Source: Magnetococcales bacterium
Lineage (GTDB): Bacteria > Pseudomonadota > Magnetococcia > Magnetococcales > DC0425bin3
DNA: 39,545 bases
Reading direction: 5' to 3'
NCBI GenBank assembly: GCA_015228935.1
Contig: JADGCO010000016.1
Location: forward strand, 1-39,545
Part shown: piece by piece, positions 5,607 to 39,545 of the stretch
Layout of the letters: every line of letters begins with the position of its first letter
How positions within the stretch are numbered: position 1 is the first letter of the stretch
Notes under the pieces: generated by a model
The model's input: the letters and a program-made list of their open reading frames with translations, nothing else
What the model was told of the DNA's origin: nothing
The model's database searches: none
Translations under genes and position numbers: made by a program

Positions 5607-8117
5607 TCATTCGGCAGGCACCACAAAGCCGGTGGCCTTGATGCGTTCCTGCATCAGGGTGACGACCTGTTCGGCCTCCTGACGACTGGCAAAGGGACCA
5701 ACCCCCACTCGAAACCAGGTTGTCTCCCCCATTTTGACCCGCCGACCGAACACCGGCAGGGGACGATCCCGAAAACGAATCTGGTTCACCTGCCGGACCA
5801 GGGCATCGGCTTCCGCCTGTTCGGAGTGGGATGTCAACTGCACGATGAACCCACCCTGCCCATGCCCGCCGCTGCGACCCGGTTCAACCACTTTTTCCGC
5901 CGCAGTCTGTACCTGACGGAGCCGTGCTTCCAATTCCGCCACCCGTTTCTCGGCAGATTGTGCCCGTTGCAGACGTTCTTCCGTCTCTGCCAGACGTTGG
6001 CGGAGGGAATTCATGGCCCGGAGTTGTTCTTCTCCGGCACTGTTTTCGGCCCCCACGATGGCGCTACCCGTTGCTGATTCCATTGCTGGCGTCACCGACC
6101 GGCGTTCCTGATCCGTCAACTGCTGTTGCAGGGTTTGCACCTGCCGTTCCAAGGCACTTGCCCGGCGTTTTTCCCGTTCCAGAGCGCCCGCATGTTCATC
6201 CAACTGTAGCCGCAGGGTTGTCACCTGTTGTTCCATGGCTCCTGCCCGCCGCTTTTCCCGTTCCAGATCGGCTGCCTGGTCAACTGACGGTAACCGCAGT
6301 TCTCCCTTCTGTTCACCCGACGGCAAACGCGCTTCACCTTTCTGCTCACCCAACGGCAGACGCGCTTCACCCTTCTGCTCACCTGACGGCAGACGCGCTT
6401 CACCCTTCTGCTCACCCGACGGCAGACGCGCTTCACCCTTCTGCTCACCCGACGGCAGACGCGCTTCACCCTTCTGCTCACCCGTCGGCAGACGCAATGC
6501 AACCTTTTGATCATTCGGCGGCATACGCGGTTCACCCGGCGGCACACGCGATTCGGCTGTCACTTTATTTTCGGCGTCGATATCTCTTGCCATGCTCTGC
6601 CCGGTACGATACCCCTCCGCCTCCGTGGCATCCCCTGGAGTGGAAAGATCCCTGATAGCCGACTCAGAAGCAGATTGGTCCTCTCCTGCAACTGTTGTCT
6701 CGGCAAACTCCACGACACCGGCCCCGGAATCCCCCTCATCCATGGCCCACCAGGCAACACCACCCACGCCAAGAACGATGGCCATGGCCAGAAGGATCCA
6801 GGGCCAAAGAGTCGTTCCCTGCCGCGTTTCCATGACTGCTTCAGCCGCGGCTTGCTTTTGAATATCCGCACGGATCTCCATATCGTCCGGGGATTCCGGA
6901 GTCTGGTACCACGCGGCTTCACGTGCCAGGGATGTGGCTTTTCCAGAGGATGTCCGCCGCTCTTGGTCCTCGCCCGATCCATGGCCGGATTCAGGCAACG
7001 CATCCTCTTCGGAAAGAGCATCCGATTTTTGTTTCGACTCCTGGTCAACCCCTTCGGCTGACACCGGGATACCTGCCTCTGTCGGCTGATCTGCCTCATC
7101 CTGCGCCTTTGGTACGGCAATTCTTGTCGGAGCTGACGGGGCGGATGCCGATCCTTCAATGGAAGGGGTCATCGCATGGATAAAAGCCATGGCCGAGGCC
7201 AGACGCTGGCGTGGATCCCAGTGCAGCGCCCGTTCCAGGATCATGTTTTGCTCATCGCTCAACATGGCCAGGGGTTTTGGCACGGGTCCTTCACCACGCC
7301 AACGGGCCGCACTCAGGGCACGTCGATCCTCATCCGAAAAGGGCAGTTGACCCGAGACCATTTCATAAAACATCACTGCCAGGGCATAGATATCGCCACC
7401 CGAGTCCGGGGTTTGCCCCAGAAAGCGGGCACCGCCGTGTTCTGCGAAGAGGAGCGTATTCCGGGCCTGCCCCATGCCGGCACTCTTGACCACATACTGT
7501 TCCGGAGAGGCATAAGGAACCTGTTCCTGCAATATTTTCTGGTCAAAATCCACTCCCCGGCTCCAGGCCAGGGCACGCAGAGCATAAGCCAACCCGAAAT
7601 TGACCAGTCGTACCTCACCACTGGCCATGATGATGACATTGCCCGGATTGAGATTGCGATGACAAACCCCTTCGAGATGGGCATGGTTCAAAACGACGGC
7701 GATTTTCTTGACCAGTTCCAGGGCTTCAGAGGGGGGCAGGACCCCTCCCGAACGACCGGCCCGCAACGTGCCAAGCGTGACACCGTCCTCGTAAGAAGAA
7801 AGCAGAAAACGCCGCTTTTGCCCGGCATCGTACAGGTGACCCAGAGAGGGTGAGACACCCGGATGCACCGAAAGCTTCGCAATATCCGCAACAACTTTTT
7901 CAAATTTTTCAAAAAAAGCCGTATCGGCAGCAGAAAAAAGGTCCGGGAGAGCACGCAGCACCAGCATGCGTCCCGTTCCCGTCTCCTCCGCCAAATAAAC
8001 GGAACCCAGCGCCCACTTGCCAAACGGACGGCGGACTGTGTATCGCCCCGCGTCGATCTTCGTTCCAGTGTCCATGGTGCCAAGTGATACCCGAAAAAAA
8101 CGGCGCGGCTCAACCAC
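5607..8117 (-). CDS. Membrane pseudokinase with repeat spacer, coiled coil and C-terminal SPOR domain
   Basis: This 836-residue protein begins with a Ser/Thr-kinase fold (about 25-320) in which all three main catalytic residues are replaced. The beta-3 Lys is Arg (VLRALP, R55), the catalytic loop reads HRN instead of HRD (N155 in CHRNLNPGN), and the DFG motif is NFG (N173). Structural motifs such as YASPEQ and DIYALAVMFYEMVSGQLPF remain. An acidic linker follows, then one transmembrane helix (about 435-457, LWPWILLAMAIVLGVGGVAW), six 11-residue repeats (GEQKGEARLPS), a coiled coil rich in LEREKRRA units, and a SPOR domain (about 755-836). SPOR domains bind denuded peptidoglycan at division sites. 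The kinase-like domain should therefore be cytoplasmic and the repeats and SPOR periplasmic. Translation starts at GTG with AGGAAAAAGGCG upstream; an ATG 14 codons inside is an alternative. Loss of phosphotransfer is predicted, not shown. Confidence 0.88.
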   Translation of the reverse strand: MVEPRRFFRVSLGTMDTGTKIDAGRYTVRRPFGKWALGSVYLAEETGTGRMLVLRALPDLFSAADTAFFEKFEKVVADIAKLSVHPGVSPSLGHLYDAGQKRRFLLSSYEDGVTLGTLRAGRSGGVLPPSEALELVKKIAVVLNHAHLEGVCHRNLNPGNVIIMASGEVRLVNFGLAYALRALAWSRGVDFDQKILQEQVPYASPEQYVVKSAGMGQARNTLLFAEHGGARFLGQTPDSGGDIYALAVMFYEMVSGQLPFSDEDRRALSAARWRGEGPVPKPLAMLSDEQNMILERALHWDPRQRLASAMAFIHAMTPSIEGSASAPSAPTRIAVPKAQDEADQPTEAGIPVSAEGVDQESKQKSDALSEEDALPESGHGSGEDQERRTSSGKATSLAREAAWYQTPESPDDMEIRADIQKQAAAEAVMETRQGTTLWPWILLAMAIVLGVGGVAWWAMDEGDSGAGVVEFAETTVAGEDQSASESAIRDLSTPGDATEAEGYRTGQSMARDIDAENKVTAESRVPPGEPRMPPNDQKVALRLPTGEQKGEARLPSGEQKGEARLPSGEQKGEARLPSGEQKGEARLPLGEQKGEARLPSGEQKGELRLPSVDQAADLEREKRRAGAMEQQVTTLRLQLDEHAGALEREKRRASALERQVQTLQQQLTDQERRSVTPAMESATGSAIVGAENSAGEEQLRAMNSLRQRLAETEERLQRAQSAEKRVAELEARLRQVQTAAEKVVEPGRSGGHGQGGFIVQLTSHSEQAEADALVRQVNQIRFRDRPLPVFGRRVKMGETTWFRVGVGPFASRQEAEQVVTLMQERIKATGFVVPAE
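6300..6497. repeat. 33-bp in-frame coding repeat, six copies
   Basis: Six consecutive 33-bp units encode GEQKGEARLPS with only single changes (one LG for SG, one EL for EA). Degenerate copies flank them (NDQKVALRLPT before, a partial unit after). The near-identity at DNA level indicates recent expansion or homogenisation. The array lies in the predicted periplasmic spacer between the membrane helix and the coiled coil, so copy-number change would alter reach without shifting frame. Confidence 0.93.
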
Positions 8118-8270: not shown

Positions 8271-9299
8271 TCACATTGAAACCTGCGAACGCCCGGCATC
8301 CTTGGCCCGGTACAGGGCGTCGTCAACCCGCGCCATGAACGTTGTGGAAGATTCGCCCCGTTCCCAGCACGCCACGCCAATACTCACCCCCAATTGCCTG
8401 GCACCTGGAGCCTGGATATGCAAATCCGTAACCGACTGGCACAAACGTTCCAGCAAAAGGCGGGCATTGGTCATGTCCGTGTTGGTCAGGATCAGGGAAA
8501 ATTCATCCCCGCCAACCCGGGCCAACACATCCGTGTCCCGCACCATTCCCGAGAGGGTGCGGGAAACCTGCCGCAGAACTTCATCGCCCTCGCCATGTCC
8601 CATCCGGTCGTTGATGGCCTTGAAATGATCCAGATCCATCCCGGCCATCACCAGGGGTGTCCCATATCTCTGGGCCTTGGAGATTTCCTGCTCCAGGCGT
8701 TCGTTGAATACCCGCCGGTTGACCAGGCCTGTCAAAACGTCCCGCCGTGCCTGATCATAAAGATCCTCGTAGGCCAGGGCACGCTCCAGAGGTCCACGCA
8801 ACTCAGAGGTCATTTCGCCAATAAACGGCACCAGAACGGATTCCACCTCGGGAGTTGCCCCATGCAGAATCAGGATCCCTTCCATGGGACCATCCGGGTT
8901 CAGGTCAACAAAGCAATATCTCAATCCCGGACGATCCACACAGGACCCACATCCGACTGCGGGTTTTTCATTCATGATCTTATTAGCAAAATCAAGAAGT
9001 TCTTGACGTTGTGGACCATGCGTGGAGCAGACCATGTGACTCCGGTTCCGTGCCACATTCCGATAGGCAACCAGATCGTGCCGCATGTGTGGCATCAGCC
9101 AGACCGAAAACGCATCCACCATGGAAGCCAGGTCGAGCATGCCGGACAGTTGCTTGTGCAGATCGTAGATGCGGGCCAGGTGTTCATTCCGGCGCCGATA
9201 CCAGTCCAGTTCCTCGATCAGGTTGGAGGAATAACTGGTCAGCAGCAGATTTGCCTGGCTTTCCAGTGACCGGTTTTTCAGGTTGAGAATGATGCCCAT
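8271..9299 (-). CDS. Diguanylate cyclase with N-terminal GAF-like sensor region
   Basis: This enzyme makes c-di-GMP from two GTP. The C-terminal GGDEF domain (about residues 175-342) has the active signature GGDEF at about 262-266. It also has the product-binding inhibitory site RDTD exactly five residues before it (RDTDVLARVGGDEF), so activity and feedback inhibition are both expected. The preceding ~165 residues look like a soluble GAF-type sensor and contain the Cys-rich segment VGCGSCVD, which could hold a ligand or metal (inference). There is no transmembrane segment. I start at the ATG at 9297-9299 because CAGGGGAGCAAAAAGTC gives a good ribosome site; a TTG ten codons upstream is less likely. 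It lies upstream of the pseudokinase gene on the same strand, 153 bp apart. Confidence 0.9.
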   Translation of the reverse strand: MGIILNLKNRSLESQANLLLTSYSSNLIEELDWYRRRNEHLARIYDLHKQLSGMLDLASMVDAFSVWLMPHMRHDLVAYRNVARNRSHMVCSTHGPQRQELLDFANKIMNEKPAVGCGSCVDRPGLRYCFVDLNPDGPMEGILILHGATPEVESVLVPFIGEMTSELRGPLERALAYEDLYDQARRDVLTGLVNRRVFNERLEQEISKAQRYGTPLVMAGMDLDHFKAINDRMGHGEGDEVLRQVSRTLSGMVRDTDVLARVGGDEFSLILTNTDMTNARLLLERLCQSVTDLHIQAPGARQLGVSIGVACWERGESSTTFMARVDDALYRAKDAGRSQVSM

Positions 9300-9575
9300 G
9301 ACTTTTTGCTCCCCTGACAGGATCAACAACGGAGAACCGACTGTTCAATGCACTGTTGGAGGTTGCCAAGTTCATGCCAACCCTGGAAGCCCGGGTATTC
9401 AAATTGTTAATATTTCAACATAAACAATGTTCTAAATATAATCATGCCAGCAAGGAACCTTCCCGGAAAGTCGCTTCATTCCCGATCAGGGGAGAATTTT
9501 GCCGCCATCGGCAAGGAAGGATTGTAACAAGCACCTGGAAATTCCTGCCTGGTACGGAGTCAAAGCCACCAATCA
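9300..9575. other. Gap upstream of the GGDEF gene, no gene seen
   Basis: No coding sequence is supported here. The part around 9400-9445 is strongly AT-rich compared with its surroundings and lies about 100-150 bp upstream of the minus-strand GGDEF start. It is the likeliest place for that gene's promoter, but no clear -35/-10 pair could be fixed. Confidence 0.4.
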
Positions 9576-13329: not shown

Positions 13330-13686
13330 ATGACCATGCCGCAGCACCAGACAGACCCAAACCTTGCCTTGGATGCCTTGCTGGCCACGCTGCGTGAGGC
13401 CTTGGTACGAACGCCGCATGCCCGGGGGGACCATACGGATCTTTGCCGGCACCACAACGCCGGCATGCCCCCGGCAACCCTGAATCACTGTCACTGTCAC
13501 GTCGCCCGGATCGTGCAAACCCTGGCAACGCCCATGCCCCGCGCCGAAGCCATCCTGGAAACCGTGCGGGCCGCCCGGCATGCCTGTCACATACTGGCCG
13601 ATCCAACATCACCTGCCACTCTTCAGGCTTTGCACCTCCTGCAAACCGCCTTGCAGCGGTTGGATGCCACAGAAAGCAGTTCTTGA
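13330..13686 (+). CDS. Small hypothetical helical protein with repeated 3' end
   Basis: I do not recognise this 118-residue protein. It is predicted mostly helical, with a central His/Cys-rich stretch (DLCRHHNAGMPPATLNHCHCH) that could bind metal. The start is uncertain (ATG at 13330 or 13336, no strong ribosome site). It follows the Pro-rich protein gene by 36 bp. Its last 21 codons, including the TGA, are repeated twice more directly downstream. The real-gene call rests on reading direction, context and the in-frame character of the 3' repeat; coding status is only moderately certain. Confidence 0.5.
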   Translation: MTMPQHQTDPNLALDALLATLREALVRTPHARGDHTDLCRHHNAGMPPATLNHCHCHVARIVQTLATPMPRAEAILETVRAARHACHILADPTSPATLQALHLLQTALQRLDATESSS

Positions 13687-13812
13687 CAGGCTTTGCACAT
13701 CCTGCAAACCACCTTGCAGCGGTTGGATGCCACAGAAAGCAGTTCTTGACAGGCTTTGCACATCCTGCAAACCGCCTTGCAGCGGTTGGATGCCACAGAA
13801 AGCAGTTCTTGA
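13624..13812. repeat. 63-bp tandem repeat of a gene's 3' end with stop codon, three copies
   Basis: Copies start at 13624, 13687 and 13750, each CAGGCTTTGCAC and ending AGCAGTTCTTGA, almost identical (ACCTCC/ACATCC, ACCGCC/ACCACC). The first copy is the end of the 13330 gene; the others follow its TGA. Sixty-three bp is 21 codons, so each copy stays in frame and each TGA (13684, 13747, 13810) lies exactly 21 codons after the last. Stop read-through would add whole 20-residue units. Confidence 0.95.
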
Positions 13813-13875
13813 CTTGCGGTTTGTTTGCCTGTTAAAAACGCTTGGTGAAGAATTTTACAACATTAATAATTTTTA

Positions 13876-39472: not shown

Positions 39473-39545
39473 GAGCCGGGGATACTCCTGAGCCGGGGAT
39501 ACTCCTGAGCCGGGGATACTCCTGAGCCGGGGATACTCCTGAGCC
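39473..39545. repeat. 17-bp tandem repeat array running off the window end
   Basis: GAGCCGGGGATACTCCT repeats at 39473, 39490, 39507, 39524 and 39541 with no changes. The array is cut by the window edge, so its true length and any associated gene end are unknown. Confidence 0.95.

Follow-up and report, generated by a model that had tools for sequence, protein, structure and literature searches.

A predicted pseudokinase joined through the membrane to a SPOR domain in Magnetococcales

The window, which is the whole stretch of 39,545 nucleotides analysed here, carries on its reverse strand a single unbroken reading frame of 836 codons. Homologues begin at the ATG at 8075 (MxxGTxI), which is therefore the likely start of translation. 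From the N terminus to the C terminus, the frame encodes a kinase-like domain, a linker, a transmembrane (TM) helix, a repeat, a predicted coiled coil and a SPOR domain. The features are as follows.

5607..8117, reverse strand: the whole gene (predicted pseudokinase, TM helix, repeats, coiled coil, SPOR); 836 aa, intact frame
7143..8075, reverse strand: Hanks-type kinase-like domain, residues 15-325 (PF00069; profile matches to PknA/PknB/StkP structures)
7998..8021, reverse strand: Gly-rich loop GKWALGSV, with Trp35 at the central Gly by alignment
7953..7955, reverse strand: Arg55 in place of the beta-3 (VAIK) Lys, in VLRAL; codon CGT, CGC in both congeners
7653..7655, reverse strand: Asn155 in place of the HRD Asp, in HRNLNPGN, by alignment
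7599..7601, reverse strand: Asn173 in place of the DFG Asp, in VNFG; codon AAT, AAC in both congeners
7416..7454, reverse strand: LLFAEHGGARFLG, a piece of an insert that separates the APE motif from helix F in much of the SPOR-linked clade
6903..6920, reverse strand: juxtamembrane motif EAAWYQ, conserved within the genus in an otherwise poorly conserved linker
6741..6809, reverse strand: single TM helix by hydropathy, about residues 437-459
6300..6537, reverse strand: 33-bp tandem repeat encoding 11-aa units EARLPSGEQKG, 7.2 copies, residues 527-606
5892..6284, reverse strand: predicted periplasmic coiled coil, residues 612-742 (heptad test)
5619..5858, reverse strand: SPOR domain, residues 754-833 (PF05036), with Gln760 and Arg803 at glycan-binding positions
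8271..9329, reverse strand: adjacent upstream diguanylate cyclase gene (GGDEF), a neighbour in six genomes

The N-terminal domain matched Pkinase in Pfam (PF00069, E 6.6e-17, 62.2 bits against a cut-off of 31.7) with the kinase motifs in order. When compared by sequence with solved structures, its profile matched PknA, PknB and StkP at E values of about 1e-35 to 1e-39. A Hanks-type protein kinase fold is predicted from these matches. PADLOC matches to PD-T4-6 and mad6 were rejected, as they reflect the kinase fold in general.

The sequence-only reading of this DNA had claimed that the beta-3 Lys, the HRD Asp and the DFG Asp (K/D/D) were replaced by Arg, Asn and Asn while the structural motifs were kept. 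Alignment verified both claims. R55, N155 and N173 occupy the three positions (R/N/N), and the catalytic-loop Asn (HRNLNPGN), the PE of APE (SPE), the alphaF Asp (DIYALAV) and the late Arg (DPRQR) are retained. The alphaC Glu position aligned with Val75. The AlphaFold2 single-sequence model of the domain had a pLDDT of only 34.7 and was not usable, so closure of the nucleotide pocket is read from the alignment. With these replacements the window's clade lacks the catalytic residue together with most of the contacts to phosphate and metal, and ATP binding has presumably been lost. With K/D/D replaced, and kept as R/N/N in three species, the domain would be classed by its residues as a bacterial pseudokinase.

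No signal peptide was found ahead of the kinase-like domain, and negative residues lie C-terminal to the TM helix. From the missing signal peptide and the charge pattern around the helix we infer an N-in/C-out topology. In the predicted coiled coil, heptad periodicity was above that of shuffled sequences for residues 612-680 (p 0.007) and reached only p 0.04 for residues 698-742. Other perfect or near-perfect tandem repeats in the window lie at 39473-39545, 13624-13813, 263-426 and 464-573, with units of 17, 63, 57 and 56 bp, respectively.

The C-terminal domain matched PF05036 (E 1.9e-9, 38.2 bits against a cut-off of 21). Its single-sequence model (pLDDT 75.8) showed a SPOR-like fold with the order beta-alpha-beta-beta-alpha. 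From the score and the RNP-like fold of the model, the product is predicted to be a SPOR-domain protein. In a Foldseek search with this model no structure matched at E <= 0.001; the RlpA SPOR structures 6i05 and 6i09 ranked second and third with weak E values. A phmmer search of the domain against PDB sequences gave no match. In RlpA, Q270 contacts the glycan (PMC6895207). The glycan-site Gln is present in 14 of the 15 SPOR copies of the clade described below, the exception being a Leu in one congener (G002), and the basic-patch Arg is likewise present in 14 of 15. By analogy with the SPOR family, the domain would bind glycan and target the protein to the septum. SPOR proteins studied so far act mostly there (PMC6895207).

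We found 26 SPOR matches in the window's genome and 4-25 in other genomes of the order, so a SPOR domain by itself says little about a divisome role. This strong expansion, 4-26 matches per genome, compares with four SPOR proteins in E. coli.

Orthologues were found in two genomes of the same genus. In G002 the gene is one frame; in G001 it falls on the ends of two contigs that share an identical overlap. An apparent stop in G001 (contig C117) lies upstream of the ATG, so the gene there is merely divided between contigs. Both congeners keep R/N/N, at some sites through different synonymous codons. Constraint is strongest in the kinase-like domain. This domain is 76% identical to that of G002; in G001, identity is 61% for the piece with the N-terminal 120 residues and 80% for the other piece, whereas the linkers are 25-38% and the SPOR domain 48-57% identical to the congeners. 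The dN/dS of the kinase domain against the congeners is about 0.08-0.19, a rough figure because synonymous sites are near saturation. The contrast in constraint between the domains is independent of this ratio.

These data bear on whether the gene is a single decaying allele or is under relaxed selection. The linkers and repeats do evolve fast, and the EARLPSGEQKG repeat, absent from both congeners, is species-specific and stands outside the conserved design. However, the frames are open in all members of the clade, the kinase domain is strongly constrained and the same substitutions occur in both congeners. We give decay almost no credence, and regard it as already largely refuted. The relatives show instead, as had been proposed, that the kinase-like domain, though stripped of its catalytic residues, is kept by selection, and its likely role is therefore that of a docking platform and not of an enzyme.

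We ran a profile search over 48 genomes of the order Magnetococcales. Eleven proteins scored 320-443 bits; since 10 of them are themselves rows in the profile, the height of these scores is partly by construction. Every other kinase scored 157 bits or less, and no score fell between 157 and 320. Outside the order, nothing exceeded 114 bits in 299 genomes of the phylum, and no clade member turned up in a sample of about 250 genomes from other parts of the phylum. A scan of genome contigs gave one distant acidobacterial kinase and nothing else. A maximum-likelihood tree that included 31 other kinases placed the 11 proteins together on one side of a branch with support of 100/99. The kinase-TM-SPOR proteins are thus a single clade, its 11 members spread over four families of Magnetococcales.

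Every complete member joins the kinase-like domain to SPOR, in one to three copies; the genes of G003 and G017 run off contig ends. Of the architecture first proposed from the sequence, the kinase-like domain, TM helix and SPOR domain therefore hold in every complete member, but the repeats do not. The HRD Asp is present in none of the 11 members, where the residue is N, N, N, N, A, S, S, S, G, G and L. Orthologues with intact K/D/D, which had been named as the finding that would speak for a decayed allele, are therefore excluded as the dominant form. The Lys is kept in 7 of 11 members and the DFG Asp in 5 of 11. The proposed HRN/NFG pattern proved narrower than the clade: R/N/N is conserved in the window's genus and confined to it, while wider relatives keep the Lys and/or the DFG Asp. 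The closest relative outside the genus (G003) has K/HRN/DHG. On the simplest reading, the common ancestor had already lost the HRD Asp, and the Lys and DFG Asp went later in the window's genus.

Since the wider relatives keep the Lys and/or DFG Asp, some of them may still bind nucleotide. The protein could then have another ATP-dependent activity, or residual kinase activity through unusual residues. SelO and SidJ have degraded kinase motifs and yet have other enzyme activities (PMC12599244). Lys and DFG Asp persist in several members, including a paralogue in the window's own genome (L043:4226-7465, contig C38) with Lys and DFG intact and HRA in place of HRD, and ATP binding may persist there. 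Against this, the window's genus lacks the Lys, the HRD Asp, the DFG Asp, the alphaC Glu and the central Gly, and we consider such activity very unlikely.

Several known systems share parts of this design. The PASTA kinases PknB, StkP and PrkC also combine a Hanks-type domain, one TM helix and an extracytoplasmic peptidoglycan-binding region, and their kinase domains are, by sequence, the nearest solved ones. They are catalytically active, however, whereas here K/D/D is lost and SPOR stands in place of PASTA. A Pfam scan found no PASTA domains in the window protein, and its score against the PASTA kinase model NF033483 was 122.6 bits, well below the equivalog cut-off of 450. MviN (MurJ) of Mycobacterium, family ActPs3, is a membrane-linked pseudokinase tied to wall biology; its pseudokinase recruits FhaA when phosphorylated by PknB (PMC12599244). 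In MviN, unlike here, the domain is part of a membrane protein that is required for peptidoglycan synthesis, the motifs are VALT / Y-- and there is no SPOR. EssB/YukC is likewise a pseudokinase that spans the membrane once, has all three motifs degraded and serves as a scaffold (PMC12599244), but it belongs to type VII secretion, has different motifs and has no SPOR.

From the SPOR side, DamX, DedD and FtsN are inner-membrane proteins with a periplasmic linker and a C-terminal SPOR domain. DamX is a TM protein with a large folded cytoplasmic domain in addition to SPOR, but no kinase-like cytoplasmic domain is described for the three (PMC7642682). Other pseudokinase families differ in their motifs or layout (PMC12599244): GLW pseudokinases have GLW for HRD, and DLHK pseudokinases keep the HRD Asp and have no TM helix, in contrast to the HRN and single TM helix found here, while CP1 pseudokinases are described as lacking a TM helix and carrying COG3899. 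A 2025 review of bacterial pseudokinase families does not mention SPOR (PMC12599244). We found no kinase-SPOR or pseudokinase-SPOR protein in the literature searched, with preprints and most subscription papers outside its scope; within that scope, the statement that no division protein of this exact design had been described holds. The sister group of the clade joins a kinase to PEGA-like and sulfatase-modifying-factor-like domains. These kinases, from the same order, share the kinase lineage, the TM helix and, by eye and in part, a TPR-like periplasmic segment, but those examined have no SPOR and about half keep the HRD Asp.

The gene contexts differ between families, and no divisome gene is a conserved neighbour across the clade. 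In one relative (G006, family f4; L045:7986-12839), the pseudokinase gene is immediately adjacent to murE-ftsI-ftsL, in convergent orientation. The ftsI there encodes 945 aa with a long N-terminal extension. The diguanylate cyclase gene is paired with the pseudokinase gene in the four genomes of family f1 and the two of f4. The conserved N-terminal half of this cyclase has no Pfam match, and its gene often adjoins a flagellin gene.

The cyclase neighbour, kept in six genomes of two families, could point to a wall-state receptor that is not tied to division. SPOR would sense peptide-free glycan anywhere in the envelope, as in turnover or damage, and the pseudokinase would relay this by conformation or dimerisation to partners such as the cyclase, much like a PASTA kinase without catalysis. 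The kinase domain is nearest to the PknB/StkP types, genomes of the order carry 4-26 SPOR matches each, and the own-genome paralogue is followed by two TerD-family genes on the same strand, all of which fit this reading. However, the cyclase is order-wide: it occurs in 40 of 48 genomes, mostly once, and in some without the pseudokinase or at another genome position. The pairing may therefore reflect inherited position and not function. Known SPOR proteins, moreover, act mostly at the septum (PMC6895207). We regard a receptor of this kind as possible but doubtful.

The explanation that we favour, and think somewhat more probable than its opposite, is a non-catalytic docking or scaffold pseudokinase, single-pass in the inner membrane and tied by SPOR to septal denuded glycan. 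By binding such peptide-free glycan, the periplasmic SPOR domain would hold the protein in place, for the most part at the septum, and the coiled coil would probably dimerise it. The kinase-like domain would transfer no phosphate and, in the window's genus, would probably bind ATP poorly or not at all. It would offer a docking surface and so bring a cytoplasmic partner to where the wall is being remodelled, much as the MviN pseudokinase recruits FhaA or DamX presents its cytoplasmic domain. The adjacent diguanylate cyclase and the other Hanks kinases of the genome are candidates for this partner. There are 8 other kinase-like genes in the window's genome, and some of their products might phosphorylate the pseudokinase.

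This docking explanation is supported by the replacement of all of K/D/D, kept so in both congeners, and by a constrained kinase domain beside far less constrained linkers. All 11 SPOR-linked members, which form one clade, lack the HRD Asp, and the glycan-site Gln and Arg are mostly kept. The murE-ftsI-ftsL cluster beside the gene in one relative and the 8 other kinase-like genes also fit, as do the precedents of MviN and EssB/YukC as recruiting pseudokinases and of DamX as a SPOR protein with a cytoplasmic fold. Counting against it, the 26 SPOR matches suggest that some SPOR proteins lie outside the divisome, congener G002 has a Leu at the key SPOR Gln, and no divisome neighbour is conserved. 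In addition, pocket closure is read from the alignment, and the degraded kinases SelO and SidJ have other activities.

A broader proposal is an undescribed, order-restricted family of receptors built on a catalytically dead kinase, in which septal glycan controls the docking platform through SPOR. It would be a Gram-negative, non-catalytic counterpart of the PASTA kinases, linking wall state to c-di-GMP through the adjacent cyclase. We consider this speculative and rather unlikely. Bacterial pseudokinases are numerous, and roles are established for few. Here the extracytoplasmic half suggests a ligand (peptide-free glycan) and a place (the septum), which makes the function directly testable. 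A readable order of loss in the clade, the catalytic Asp and then the ATP contacts, also lets one ask why the fold is kept.

Non-SPOR kinases of the order are often degraded as well. Among the 25 that we examined, the HRD Asp is present in 14 and K/D/D in only 5. Examples are L016, L026, L029 and L086, and the patterns include HRD-NFC, HRN-NFD and HRH-C.
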